Positions 35,748 to 39,860 of a stretch of 64,000 nt of DNA are shown here, one piece after another. A model generated the notes under the pieces. The model was not told the origin of the DNA. It did no database searches and saw nothing but the letters and a program-made list of their open reading frames with translations. The stretch is from Pseudomonas fulva 12-X. GTDB lineage: Bacteria; Pseudomonadota; Gammaproteobacteria; Pseudomonadales; Pseudomonadaceae. The DNA lies in assembly GCF_000213805.1 (NCBI RefSeq), contig NC_015556.1, positions 310,001-374,000 on the forward strand. The letters run 5' to 3'. Each line of letters begins with the position of its first letter. The first letter of the stretch is position 1. A program made the position numbers and the translations under genes.

Positions 35748-36893
35748 ATGGAATTCGAAAAACTGTTGCGTCTGATGGTCGAGAAGGGCGGCTCCGATCT
35801 GTTCATCACCGCTGGCGTGCCGCCGTCGATGAAGGTCAATGGCAAGATCATGCCCGTGACCAAGACCCCGCTGTCGCCGGAGATGACCCGTGAAACCGTG
35901 CACGGGGTGATGAACGAGCAGCAACGCCGGGAGTTCGCCGAAAACCACGAGTGCAACTTCGCGATCAGCGCCCGTGGCATCGGCCGTTTCCGGGTCAGTG
36001 CCTTCTACCAGCGCAACCTGGCTGGCATGGTGCTGCGCCGCATCGAAACCAACATCCCGACGCTGGACGACCTCAAGCTGCCGGAAATCCTCAAGAAGCT
36101 GGCGCTGACCAAACGCGGCCTGGTGCTGTTCGTCGGCGCCACCGGCACCGGCAAGTCCACCTCCCTGGCGGCGATGATCGGCTACCGCAACAAGAACAGC
36201 AGCGGCCACATCATCTCCATCGAAGACCCGATCGAGTACATCCACCAGCACCAGAACTGCATCGTCACCCAGCGCGAAGTGGGCATCGACACTGATTCTT
36301 TCGAGGTCGCGCTGAAGAACACCCTGCGCCAGGCGCCGGACGTGATCCTCATCGGTGAGGTGCGTACCCGCGAGACCATGGACCACGCCGTGGCCTTCGC
36401 CGAAACCGGCCACCTGTGCCTGGCCACCCTGCACGCCAACAACGCCAACCAGGCGCTGGACCGGATCATCAACTTCTTCCCGGCGGACCGGCAGAACCAG
36501 GTGTGGATGGACCTGTCGCTGAACCTCAAGGCCATCGTCGCCCAGCAACTGATCCCCACGCCCGACGGCAAGGGCCGCCGCGCCGTGATCGAGGTGCTGA
36601 TCAACACCCCGCTGGCCGCCGACCTGATCCGCAAGGGTGAGGTGCACGAGCTCAAGGGCCTGATGAAGCGCTCCACCGAGCACGGCATGCAGACCTTCGA
36701 CCAGGCGCTTTACAACCTCTACAGCCAGGGCGAGATCACCTACGAAGATGCCCTGCTGTACGCTGACTCGGCCAACGACCTGCGTCTGATGATCAAGCTC
36801 GGCTCGGAAACCGACGGCGAACACCTGACCAGCATGTCCCAGGGTCTGGCCTTGGAGATCAGCGACGAAGATCAGGGGCGGCGGTTTCGTTAA
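35748..36893 (+). CDS. pilU: Type IV pilus PilT-like ATPase PilU
   Basis: A 381-residue paralogue of PilT that adds force to retraction. Walker A is GATGTGKSTSLAA, the Asp box IEDPIEYIHQH, Walker B DVILIGEVRTRETM, and the His box CLATLHANN. The C-terminal extension of about 40 residues beyond PilT is typical. An intrinsic terminator follows directly, and beyond it lies the CRISPR locus. Confidence 0.97.
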   Translation: MEFEKLLRLMVEKGGSDLFITAGVPPSMKVNGKIMPVTKTPLSPEMTRETVHGVMNEQQRREFAENHECNFAISARGIGRFRVSAFYQRNLAGMVLRRIETNIPTLDDLKLPEILKKLALTKRGLVLFVGATGTGKSTSLAAMIGYRNKNSSGHIISIEDPIEYIHQHQNCIVTQREVGIDTDSFEVALKNTLRQAPDVILIGEVRTRETMDHAVAFAETGHLCLATLHANNANQALDRIINFFPADRQNQVWMDLSLNLKAIVAQQLIPTPDGKGRRAVIEVLINTPLAADLIRKGEVHELKGLMKRSTEHGMQTFDQALYNLYSQGEITYEDALLYADSANDLRLMIKLGSETDGEHLTSMSQGLALEISDEDQGRRFR

Positions 36894-36917
36894 GCCTGTC
36901 GTTGCTCGTATAGAACG

Positions 36918-36940
36918 AAACCCGCTTCGGCGGGTTTTTT
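36918..36940 (+). terminator. Rho-independent terminator of pilU
   Basis: AAACCCGC, a TTCG loop and GCGGGTTTTTT form a classical intrinsic terminator 25 bases after the pilU stop. It ends eight bases before the first CRISPR repeat. Confidence 0.92.
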
Positions 36941-36947
36941 GTTGGTG

Positions 36948-37500
36948 ACTCGGGGCTGCCTATGCGGCAGTGAAGGTGGCGCCTTTCGTCACGGGCAGGT
37001 CTAGGCATTTCTGAGCTGCCTATACGGCAGTGAAGCCCTCCGGCACCGCCACGCCCGCAGGATGTACTTTCTGAGCTGCCTATACGGCAGTGAAGGTGGG
37101 CGAGGTGTGGGGCATCGGCCGGCGCCTTTTCTGAGCTGCCTACACGGCAGTGAAGCGGCCTTGGCTGGAGGCCCATGTGGGCGAGCATTTCTGAGCTGCC
37201 TACACGGCAGTGAAGCGCCTCTTCCTGGGCGGCAAAGCGCTCGGCCATTTCTGAGCTGCCTACACGGCAGTGAAGTCGGAACCGTAGGCGTAATCCGAGT
37301 AATCCAATTTCTGAGCTGCCTACACGGCAGTGAAGGCGGTACCAACAAGCTGAACCCTGGCCAGGGTTTTCTGAGCTGCCTACACGGCAGTGAAGCTGCA
37401 TGCCAGCCAGGCCACCCATGCCGTCATTTTCTGAGCTGCCTACACGGCAGTGAAGAACACCTGCATCACCGGCATGCCGTTCATCTTTTTCTGAGCTGCC
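36948..37500 (-). CRISPR. Left CRISPR arm, type I-F-like, nine spacers, leaderless
   Basis: There are nine repeats of 28 nt at an exact 60-base period plus a truncated tenth. On the minus strand the usual repeat starts CTTCACTGCC, has GTGTA at its centre and ends GGCAGCTCAGAAA. All nine spacers are 32 nt (first 36976-37007, last 37456-37487). The leftmost repeat is degenerate, and the next two differ at the centre (GTATA), marking this as the trailer end. The leader end, expected at the right, is cut inside a repeat at 37500. The repeat closely resembles the type I-F repeat of P. aeruginosa. No cas gene lies in the window. Confidence 0.95.
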
Positions 37501-37518
37501 GTATAGGCAGCTCAGAAA
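37488..37518. repeat. Chimeric palindromic repeat joining two CRISPR arms
   Basis: This 31-bp perfect palindrome has arms TTTCTGAGCTGCC and its complement around GTATA. The left 13 bases are the 3' part of a left-arm repeat, and the right 18 bases are the 3' part of a right-arm repeat. The 5' (leader-side) portions of both are missing. The join falls at CTGCC, which occurs in both repeat orientations. Confidence 0.9.
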
Positions 37519-37817
37519 AGCACGGTCGGTGCGTCAGCCATGGCAGCAGCGTTCACTGCCGTATAGGCAGCTCAGAAAGACACGAAACGTATGCGGCACA
37601 ACTCGATGTTGTTCACTGCCGTATAGGCAGCTCAGAAATTTGCCATGGTTCACCTCGATCCCGGCCGAGGGTTCACTGCCGTATAGGCAGCTCAGAAAAT
37701 GAAGGCGAAGAGCAGTGCGCCGGCGAATGCGTTCACTGCCGTATAGGCAGCTCATAAATCGGAGACACTGCCAGGGTTTCTTTTGCCCGGTTCACTGCCG
37801 CACAGGCAGCACTTTCT
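37501..37817 (+). CRISPR. Right CRISPR arm, type I-F-like, five spacers, leaderless
   Basis: Repeats run on the plus strand at the same 60-base period. The consensus starts GTTCACTGCC, has GTATA at its centre and ends GGCAGCTCAGAAA, differing from the left arm at base 1 and in the centre. Spacers are 37519-37550, 37579-37610, 37639-37670, 37699-37730 (32 nt each) and 37759-37789 (31 nt). The repeat at 37731 has one change (CTCATAAA), and the last, at 37790-37817, is degenerate over its final seven bases, so the trailer is at the right. The leader side is lost at the junction. Confidence 0.95.
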
Positions 37818-38649
37818 CCGCATCCGCCTGAATGCGTTTGCCCGGCCGAGCGGCGACTGCCTCAGCCTGGCCATCGACCTGGGCGCCTGCTCTAGCCTGG
37901 CTCATCAAACGGGGAATCAGTGGGCCTTCGGGCAGGTTGCGCCAGAAGCGCACCGGCATATTGGTTTCCAGAACGCTTCGATTGAGGCGTGCCGGGTTGA
38001 AGGTACTGCCGTAGTAGGCCAGCCACATCGCTTCGTTGCGGTCGTCGGTGCCCTGGGCCAATTGTTGCCATTCAGGCGGGCAGGGCTTGGCGTGATGCAG
38101 CTTCTCGCCATCCCAGTACACGCCGTCATCCGGTGTAGCGATTAGCCAGGTCTGGCGGCCGAGGCGTTCGGCGAAATGGCCCGAGGCGCTGGCGAGAATG
38201 TCGTGGGCCGGCTCGTGCCAGGCCACCAGCTCCGGTCCGCCGGCGCTGGCGTCCCGCGGTTTGAAGCGCAGGAAGGCGTGTAGGTGATGCGCTTCGCGGC
38301 GAACCGCCTTGAGGCGGGCGTGCAGTTCGCTGCCGTCGATATCGCCGGCCAGCATGGCGGCCTGATCGCCATTGGCGACGCGCCAGAGGATGCGGTACAG
38401 CAGTGCCCAGCGCTGGGCGCAGCGAAAGCGAGCGGCGCTTTCCAGTTGTTCGATCAGGGCGCGCGGCACGCGTACCGGACGATCAGCCGCCACGGCGGTT
38501 TGTGGCTTGTCCAGGTGGCCAAAGAGGTCGTGATTTTCCTGGCTGTCCTGCACCCAGCTCAGTTGATGCGGCGCCATGCCTTGGCGCAGTTGCGCTCGGG
38601 CAGCATCCCGCCAGCCGGCGAAACTGCCGTCGAAATGCACCGCGTGCAT
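37792..38649 (-). CDS. DNA-repair-linked protein of the TIGR03915/DUF4130 family
   Basis: A 285-residue soluble protein of a family found beside a DNA-repair radical SAM protein and often linked to uracil-DNA glycosylase-like domains. Typical blocks are HAVHFDGSFAGWRDAAR, KAVRREAHHLHAFLRF, ERLGRQTWLIATPDDGVYWDG and AMWLAYYGSTFNPARLN, ending with FWRNLPEGPLIPRL. Its biochemical role is not established. The ATG overlaps the stop of the radical SAM gene by one base (TGATG). The last codons and stop (VLPVRQ then TGA) are read from the degenerate CRISPR repeat, so the original C-terminus may have been replaced. Confidence 0.85.
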   Translation of the reverse strand: MHAVHFDGSFAGWRDAARAQLRQGMAPHQLSWVQDSQENHDLFGHLDKPQTAVAADRPVRVPRALIEQLESAARFRCAQRWALLYRILWRVANGDQAAMLAGDIDGSELHARLKAVRREAHHLHAFLRFKPRDASAGGPELVAWHEPAHDILASASGHFAERLGRQTWLIATPDDGVYWDGEKLHHAKPCPPEWQQLAQGTDDRNEAMWLAYYGSTFNPARLNRSVLETNMPVRFWRNLPEGPLIPRLMSQARAGAQVDGQAEAVAARPGKRIQADAEKVLPVRQ

Positions 38650-39860
38650 CACCACAGCCCCATCTGTTGCGGCGCTTCGCTCAATTGCTGGCGCAGTACC
38701 AGGGATTCGCGGGTCGCCTGAGCCGGGCGGTAGTCCTGGGTGACGATAAAGGGCTTGGCCTTTTCCAGCACGCAGCGCAAACGCCCCACATCTTCGAAGC
38801 GGATGCGCTTCTGCCTGCGCAGGGCCACCAGGCGCTGGGCGCTGAGCACACCGATGCCGGGGATGCGGGCGATCAGGGTGACGTCCGCGCGGTTGAGGTC
38901 GACGGGAAAGAGCTGACGATTGTTCAGTGCCCAGGCCAGTTTTGGGTCGATATCCAGCGCTAGGTTGCCGGGGCCGTCGAGCAACTCCGTGGCCTTGAAG
39001 CCGTAGCCGCGCATCAGGAAGTCCGCCTGATACAAGCGGTGCTCGCGTAGCAGCGGCGGCGCCTCGAAGGGGACGCTCTTGGGGCTTTGCGGAATCGGGC
39101 TGAAGGCCGAGTAATAGACGCGCTTGAGGCGAAAATCGCCATACAGCGACTGGGCGGTGTGCAGGATGGTGCTGTCGTCGGTGGCGTCGGCGCCGACGAT
39201 CATCTGCGTGCTCTGCCCGGCAGGCGCAAAGGCGGGCGCGCGTTTCTCGCTGTCGGCCTCTTCGACGCCATTGCGGATGGTGCCCATGGCCTGCTTGATC
39301 GGCGCCACGCTCTTTTCCGGCGCCAGGCGGATCAGGCTGCTTTCGGTGGGCAGTTCGATGTTCACGCTGAGGCGGTCGGCGTAGCGACCGGCTTCGGCGA
39401 TCAGCTCCGGCGACGCGTCGGGAATGGTCTTGAGGTGGATGTAGCCACGAAACTCGTGCTCCTCACGCAGCAGCTTGGCGACCCGGTTGAGCTGCTCCAT
39501 GGTGTAGTCCGCCGAGCGGATGATGCCGGAGCTCAGGAACAGCCCGCTGATGCAGTTGCGGCGGTAGAAATCCAGGGTCAGGGTGACCACTTCCTCGGGC
39601 GTGAAGCGCGCGCGGGGTACGTCGCTGGAGCGACGATTGACACAGTACTGGCAGTCGTACAGGCAGAAATTGGTCAGCAGGATCTTCAGCAGCGCCACGC
39701 AGCGGCCATCGGGGGTGAAGCTGTGGCAGATGCCCATGCCGTCGGTAGCGCCCATGCCGCTCTGGCCTTTCGAGCTGCGTTTGGGCGCGCCGCTGCTGGC
39801 GCACGAAACATCGTATTTGGCGGCGTCGGCGAGTACCGTGAGCTTTTCGATCAATTCCAT
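38649..39860 (-). CDS. Putative DNA modification/repair radical SAM protein
   Basis: A 403-residue protein of the TIGR03916 family. The iron-sulfur site is CLYDCQYC (C-x3-C-x2-C) near residue 67. The barrel segments LFLSSGIIRSADYTMEQL and IELPTESSLIRLAPEKS follow, and a C-terminal helix-hairpin-helix (LIARIPGIGVLSAQRLVALRR) suggests DNA binding. The start MELIEKLTVLADAAKYD is set by the family and by a LexA box that ends 17 bases upstream. It leads a two-gene unit with the DUF4130 gene. The substrate lesion is unknown; the box places it in the SOS response. Confidence 0.88.
   Translation of the reverse strand: MELIEKLTVLADAAKYDVSCASSGAPKRSSKGQSGMGATDGMGICHSFTPDGRCVALLKILLTNFCLYDCQYCVNRRSSDVPRARFTPEEVVTLTLDFYRRNCISGLFLSSGIIRSADYTMEQLNRVAKLLREEHEFRGYIHLKTIPDASPELIAEAGRYADRLSVNIELPTESSLIRLAPEKSVAPIKQAMGTIRNGVEEADSEKRAPAFAPAGQSTQMIVGADATDDSTILHTAQSLYGDFRLKRVYYSAFSPIPQSPKSVPFEAPPLLREHRLYQADFLMRGYGFKATELLDGPGNLALDIDPKLAWALNNRQLFPVDLNRADVTLIARIPGIGVLSAQRLVALRRQKRIRFEDVGRLRCVLEKAKPFIVTQDYRPAQATRESLVLRQQLSEAPQQMGLW

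Follow-up and report, generated by a model that had tools for sequence, protein, structure and literature searches.

The locus described here lies in the genome of Pseudomonas fulva 12-X, within a 64,000-nucleotide stretch of DNA analysed as a whole (the window), where a CRISPR array at 36948-37817 separates a gene for a PilT/PilU-family ATPase from one for a TIGR03915 putative DNA repair protein (Table 1). Arrays of type I-F have a 28-nt repeat with a CTGCC-N5-GGCAG stem and spacers of 32 nt, and the array conforms to this definition in repeat length, stem and spacer length. Nine spacers, each of 32 nt, are read on the minus strand from eight 28-nt repeats and a ninth that is degenerate. Five more, all of 32 nt except one of 31 nt, are read on the plus strand from five repeats, the last of which is degenerate; the two sets meet in a single hybrid repeat, with zero DNA between the two array halves and no leader at their junction. 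Inspection thus bore out the architecture proposed in a sequence-only reading: two type I-F-like arrays placed head to head, repeat direction flipping inside one repeat, and degenerate repeats at both outer ends. The 60-nt spacing and near-perfect repeats exclude a chance origin. When the whole genome was searched with the repeat pattern (up to two mismatches), all 13 matches (13/13) fell inside this array, with no second array of the same repeat elsewhere, and the reversed pattern, used as a control, gave no match.

Table 1. Features of the fused array and its flanking genes (positions in the window).
Feature	Position	Strand	Remarks
PilT/PilU-family ATPase gene (pilU in the sequence-only reading), left flank	35748..36893	+	
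Terminator-like hairpin in the gap between pilU and the array	36917..36938	+	one found, shuffle mean 1.0
Degenerate trailer repeat, minus array	36948..36975	-	3' end CCCCGAGT where other repeats have CTCAGAAA; similar trailer at the same site in G450 and G462
Spacer M9, outermost in minus array	36976..37007	-	31/32 match to a viral-contig gene, CC in front
Minus-array body, 8 repeats with spacers M1-M8	37008..37487	-	
Spacer M7	37096..37127	-	30/32 match to a gene of phage OR820920 annotated DNA polymerase, TC in front
Head-to-head hybrid repeat	37488..37518	.	left half as in minus array; GTATA core and right half plus-array-like; perfect 13-bp arms
Plus-array body, 4 repeats with spacers P1-P5	37519..37789	+	
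Degenerate trailer repeat, plus array	37790..37817	+	on the minus strand it supplies the final residues of the DUF4130/TIGR03915 product and the TGA stop of its gene
TIGR03915 putative DNA repair protein gene (DUF4130 in the sequence-only reading), right flank	37792..38655	-	3' end within the trailer repeat

The flip in direction is a 31-nt palindrome, TTTCTGAGCTGCC-GTATA-GGCAGCTCAGAAA. Repeats of the minus array read CTTCACTGCCGTGTAGGCAGCTCAGAAA, the outermost three carrying GTATA, GTATA and GCATA, and those of the plus array read GTTCACTGCCGTATAGGCAGCTCAGAAA; since these variants differ, the halves derive from two distinct arrays. In the sense of the crRNA, the palindrome is the start of both arrays and a degenerate repeat is the end of each. 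On the plus strand, a repeat of the left array is TTTCTGAGCTGCC-TACAC-GGCAGTGAAG and one of the right array is GTTCACTGCC-GTATA-GGCAGCTCAGAAA, so that the junction takes its left part from the left repeat and everything from the core rightwards from the right repeat, placing the break inside CTGCC, five bases common to both. The hybrid repeat retains the CTGCC/GGCAG stem and CTCAGAAA on either strand.

The genome, one contig of 4,920,769 bp rated 100% complete, yielded no match to models of Cas1, Csy3 or the type I-F Cas2-3 (TIGR02562) when searched as a whole, and Csy1, Csy2 and Csy4 were absent from the window. Neither these cas genes nor the leader by the first repeat, all marks of a complete type I-F system, were found. 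The absence of cas genes from the locus, noted in the sequence-only reading, therefore extends genome-wide for cas1, csy3 and cas2-3, and its suggestion that the array might act with Cas proteins encoded elsewhere is untenable for the present genome, as far as these three models show. With leader and Cas1 both gone, the array is predicted to be incapable of acquiring spacers, and interference would require the arrival of Csy proteins. As no leader, Cas1 or cognate effector was found in the genome, the array is most likely an inert fossil. No promoter-like site was detected, and a terminator-like hairpin was seen only after pilU; transcription arriving from the TIGR03915 side would copy the minus array in sense. 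Csy4 processes repeats with a stem and handle, and an incoming Csy4 could conceivably process the hybrid repeat, which presents both on either strand.

Protospacers of type I-F systems carry a CC motif on their 5' side. Such a motif precedes the gene matched by M9, which lies in an IMG/VR contig (L173:5306-5337). The source of M7 is uncertain because plasmid Y-family polymerase genes match it as well as the phage polymerase gene. Comparison of the whole array with phages gave one match covering a complete spacer, that of M7. Eight spacers (M1, M2, M4, M8, M9, P1, P2 and P3) were scanned against viral contigs by their first 20-22 nt; M9 was matched and the other seven were not. Against plasmids the whole array retrieved 39 records, 32 at 60-80% identity, which we took for other I-F-like arrays, and seven at identities of at least 90%, one on the repeat and six on the M7 region. 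Five of these six are named Y-family DNA polymerase and one DUF4113; because two extend back into the repeat, the M7-region matches may represent a shared protein motif. The matches fit, if thinly, an array that formerly took up phage DNA. A spacer in the plus array of the relative G462 (L157) overlaps the viral target stretch of M9 (31/32, CC in front); it and M9 lie in arrays of opposite orientation, and the two species have no identical spacers.

Spacers directed against cas genes, the hallmark of the anti-cas orphan array of E. coli type, were sought by comparing 117 spacers from 21 rows with 16 cas intervals representing 15 distinct loci, all of them other loci than the lost local operon. 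The best full-length identity was 72% for real and reversed spacers alike, the longest exact match was 15 nt (14 nt in the reversed control), and weak hits (E up to 10) numbered 6161 for real and 4038 for reversed spacers. No spacer was found to match type I-F cas genes in this comparison, which speaks against placing the window array in that class. The only identical spacers among the 117 were those of L057 and L122, one locus in two records.

The pilU-TIGR03915 interval was compared in 16 relatives, each around its own TIGR03915 gene. Repeats were absent from the site in the more distant 12 of the 16; in ten of these the aligned ends of pilU and TIGR03915 are 1-49 bp apart, the remaining distances being 288 bp (L170) and 601 bp (L168). 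Array remnants occupy the site in the window, G450, P. flavescens, Pseudomonas sp. PA15 and G462, and trailers are similar at both ends among the window, G450 and G462. The prospect, raised in the sequence-only reading, that close relatives might hold an intact array-cas-array locus sharing these spacers was realized only in part: no intact locus was present at the site in the sampled relatives and no spacer is common to the species there, but G462 retains a relic of Cas2-3. This is an open 100-aa frame between the array remnants, adjoining the plus array and sharing 67% identity with the C-terminus of G054 Cas2-3; it also resembles that of most other intact loci, and lies on the minus strand, as does Cas2-3 in L115 and L116. 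No NCBIfam family was assigned to this short piece, and a TIGR02562 search of the G462 genome was blank. The gap in G462 (L157:12343-14660) has been invaded as well by a hipA-hipB-like pair, the antitoxin match falling under its cut-off, and G462 has a degenerate head-to-head palindrome in addition to the relic, a combination not accounted for by one clean deletion.

The trailer of the plus array has a history of its own. In G001 and G426 the array is gone, and the TIGR03915 gene ends in KVLPVRQ-stop within a trailer-like stretch (25 and 26 of 28 bases, respectively); the corresponding match is 19/28 in P. flavescens and 12-13/28 in G232, G424 and G215. Because the gene end matches the trailer repeat in the array-free G001 and G426, the repeat evidently entered the coding frame, where it supplies the TIGR03915 C-terminus and stop (the ends seen in L156 and L158), and it outlived the array. 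Directly after the pilU stop, G001 also has a repeat-like stretch with four mismatches in 21.

A midpoint-rooted tree of pilU, radical-SAM, TIGR03915 and pyrC (pyrC being absent in six rows, including G462) joins G450 and G462 as sisters with support of 100, separate from the window, PA15 and G215. Since G462 still holds the Cas2-3 relic, the G450 arrays were probably fused after the split from G462, independently of the window. The junction cores, GTATA in the window and TACAC in G450 (read in the window direction), differ, which together with the lack of shared spacers agrees with separate fusions; one early fusion followed by loss of spacers stays conceivable. Arrays were probably fused here on more than one occasion.

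To inventory such junctions more broadly, a junction pattern was searched in the GTDB r220 species genomes, leaving out that of the window, and retrieved 25 stretches in 24 species genomes. They were sorted by whether the repeats later turn back to their first direction: in 17 the head-to-head junction stands alone, seven also have a tail-to-tail junction (L035, L036, L042, L051, L052, L055 and L058), and one, at a contig edge (L048), is unclassed. Where a loose tail-to-tail hit came with no flip (L039, L040 and L050, the first ending at the stretch edge), it was taken as a single degenerate repeat. None of the 17 genomes with a head-to-head junction only contains csy3, nor do those of the window and G450 (0/19 species); csy3 occurs in three of the seven tail-to-tail genomes (L036, L042 and L052, with L051 counted via L048, the same strain). 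Cas1 was found in four of the 17, accompanied by weak Cas3 matches below the cut-off, and the 8-kb stretches around these 17 loci showed no cas remnant. Grouped by eye according to their flanks, the 19 loci represent about eight chromosomal sites; the fused architecture recurs, with other spacers, in three other species at the pilU-TIGR03915 site and at other sites besides. In 18 of the 19 loci (L054, with no repeats on one side, being set aside) the core lies entirely in one direction, ten left and eight right; it is identical to the adjacent core on just one side in 12/18 and matches neither neighbour in 6/18. The breaks lie in one or the other arm of the CTGCC/GGCAG stem, a position partly built into a pattern that requires both half-repeats and a 5-nt core and misses junctions elsewhere in the repeat. 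The exact E. coli junction gave no match with the one core variant tried.

Among 398 Pseudomonas genomes compared as one set, the repeat (at most one mismatch) was present in 31 and the junction in seven; csy3 was present in 14, each of which also has the repeat. Junction and csy3 did not overlap: the junction occurs in 0/14 csy3-positive as against 7/17 csy3-negative repeat-bearing genomes (Fisher p=0.009, counting related species as independent), or in 7/13 csy3-negative genomes (p=0.002) once four with a single repeat and no junction are excluded. These 13 comprise the seven with an exact junction, G462 with a degenerate one, and five in which one orientation was seen, opposite-direction degenerate repeats having been sought in three of the five (G006, G037 and G063). 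The exact junction has just one plain repeat beside it in G414 and G450. A record titled Pantoea sp. Cy-639 (L122/L057) has the same spacers as G414, a genome that the set places in Pseudomonas. Arrays face each other across the cas operon in 2/14 csy3-positive genomes (G195 and G258; stretches of 15-20 kb were viewed), and the intact facing-array loci are L115, L116 and, from another family, L080. Two divergent arrays 515-630 bp apart lie outside the cas operon in G018 and G438 (L079:13552-15436 and L120:1658-2765); these csy3-positive pairs possibly have one common leader region.

We consider it probable that the window array is a type I-F remnant, and likely an inert fossil, of a recurrent kind, produced by a deletion between two arrays that joined their repeats and removed the leaders and cas genes. 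Judging from relatives, the ancestral pilU-DUF4130 interval would have held an array, a cas operon and a second array, with leaders facing inward. Deletion between one repeat of each array would leave a join inside a repeat, and the short homology would be the repeat's own stem, in which CTGCC (or GGCAG) runs in the same direction in both repeat orientations. Everything between the break points would go with it: the cas operon, the two leaders and whatever spacers lay on the leader side; similar losses elsewhere in type I-F loci would make this a recurrent microhomology deletion between facing arrays. We favour this explanation because of the two trailers, the hybrid junction, the lack of any cas match, the Cas2-3 relic of G462 and the intact facing-array loci elsewhere, and these features support the earlier proposal that both leaders and everything between them were deleted. 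That the loss took one single deletion is likely. Against the deletion reading, the G462 relic is the sole direct trace, and our confidence is lower because facing arrays were seen in just two of the 14 intact loci: either such loci are the ones that have been lost, or the route was less simple than drawn.

A longer route, to which we give a minor share of belief, would have begun with the fusion of a divergent pair that had a short leader region in common, followed by a second step in which deletion between direct repeats removed the cas operon. The closely spaced pairs of G438 and G018 offer a starting point, and as they lie outside the cas operon such a fusion need not remove it; the joint presence of a degenerate palindrome and a Cas2-3 relic in G462 also counts in its favour. 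This sequence of events requires a third array, however, the fused junction is absent from all 14 csy3-positive genomes of the genus, and no spacer is common to the species at the pilU site.

Retention of the orphan array to guard against type I-F cas genes that enter the cell would be compatible with inter-array deletion and seems improbable. Its precedent is E. coli, where orphan I-F arrays and their anti-cas role are in print, as far as the parts consulted of these sources go (PMC4489801, PMC5972030, PMC2886076, PMC8616872; for the precedent itself, PMC5972030, PMC2886076 and PMC8616872). The E. coli orphan array (CRISPR4.1-2 or CRISPR3) resembles that of the window as a short I-F array where cas is absent, according to portions of the same four reports. 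The K-12 orphan has two repeats in one orientation, whereas in the window two orientations are fused within a repeat, and E. coli orphan spacers are described in those portions as matching cas, in contrast to the window spacers. The stem and CTCAGAAA kept on both strands of the hybrid repeat would suit a guard; the absence of cas-matching spacers and of a promoter-like site, and the viral contig to which M9 points, speak against one.

Still less credible is an origin from one array alone, part of which was inverted through its repeat stems without loss of a second array. Such inversions exist, since a tail-to-tail junction accompanies the head-to-head one at seven of the 25 loci, three of these seven in genomes with csy3, and their head-to-head junction is centred on the stem exactly as in the window. 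We rejected this origin for the window locus, which lacks the tail-to-tail junction carried by inverted arrays elsewhere, has a degenerate trailer at each end and uses different repeat variants in its two arms. Although palindromes can be misassembled, an assembly artefact is scarcely believable in a one-contig genome whose architecture recurs with other spacers in three other species at the same site and at other sites.

Among known arrangements, the locus is close to the two-array, cas-flanking loci L115 and L116, which have the same repeat type, 32-nt spacers and arrays that face each other; unlike them, the window locus is without a cas operon and both leaders. In the portions consulted of one report (PMC3630108), cas deletion abolishes self-targeting toxicity, and some deletion mutants show 7-nt homology at their repair sites. 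Titles and abstract openings contained no account of head-to-head, stem-fused I-F arrays; an earlier description is possible, notably in the subscription E. coli CRISPR literature outside that survey. Orphan I-F arrays themselves are already known; the window adds to them a CRISPR remnant from which the manner of loss can be read.

More tentatively, and with somewhat less than even confidence, we suggest that facing I-F arrays are a built-in, one-step excision device, that two-array systems in Pseudomonas disappear mainly in this way, and that a fused array could be re-armed. The palindromic stem would supply short direct homology to every inverted pair of repeats, and with stem and handle on both strands of the hybrid repeat, a newly acquired I-F system could use the array. 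Two facing arrays with palindromic repeats would then be unstable by design, a claim open to test. The pilU site displays several outcomes together, from fused arrays through a Cas2-3 relic to a single repeat that persists in a protein reading frame. The junction is a readable scar that records how a CRISPR-Cas system went, and a simple sequence pattern allows such losses to be counted across genomes. The same scar occurs in other species, and may represent a regular way in which type I-F systems disappear.
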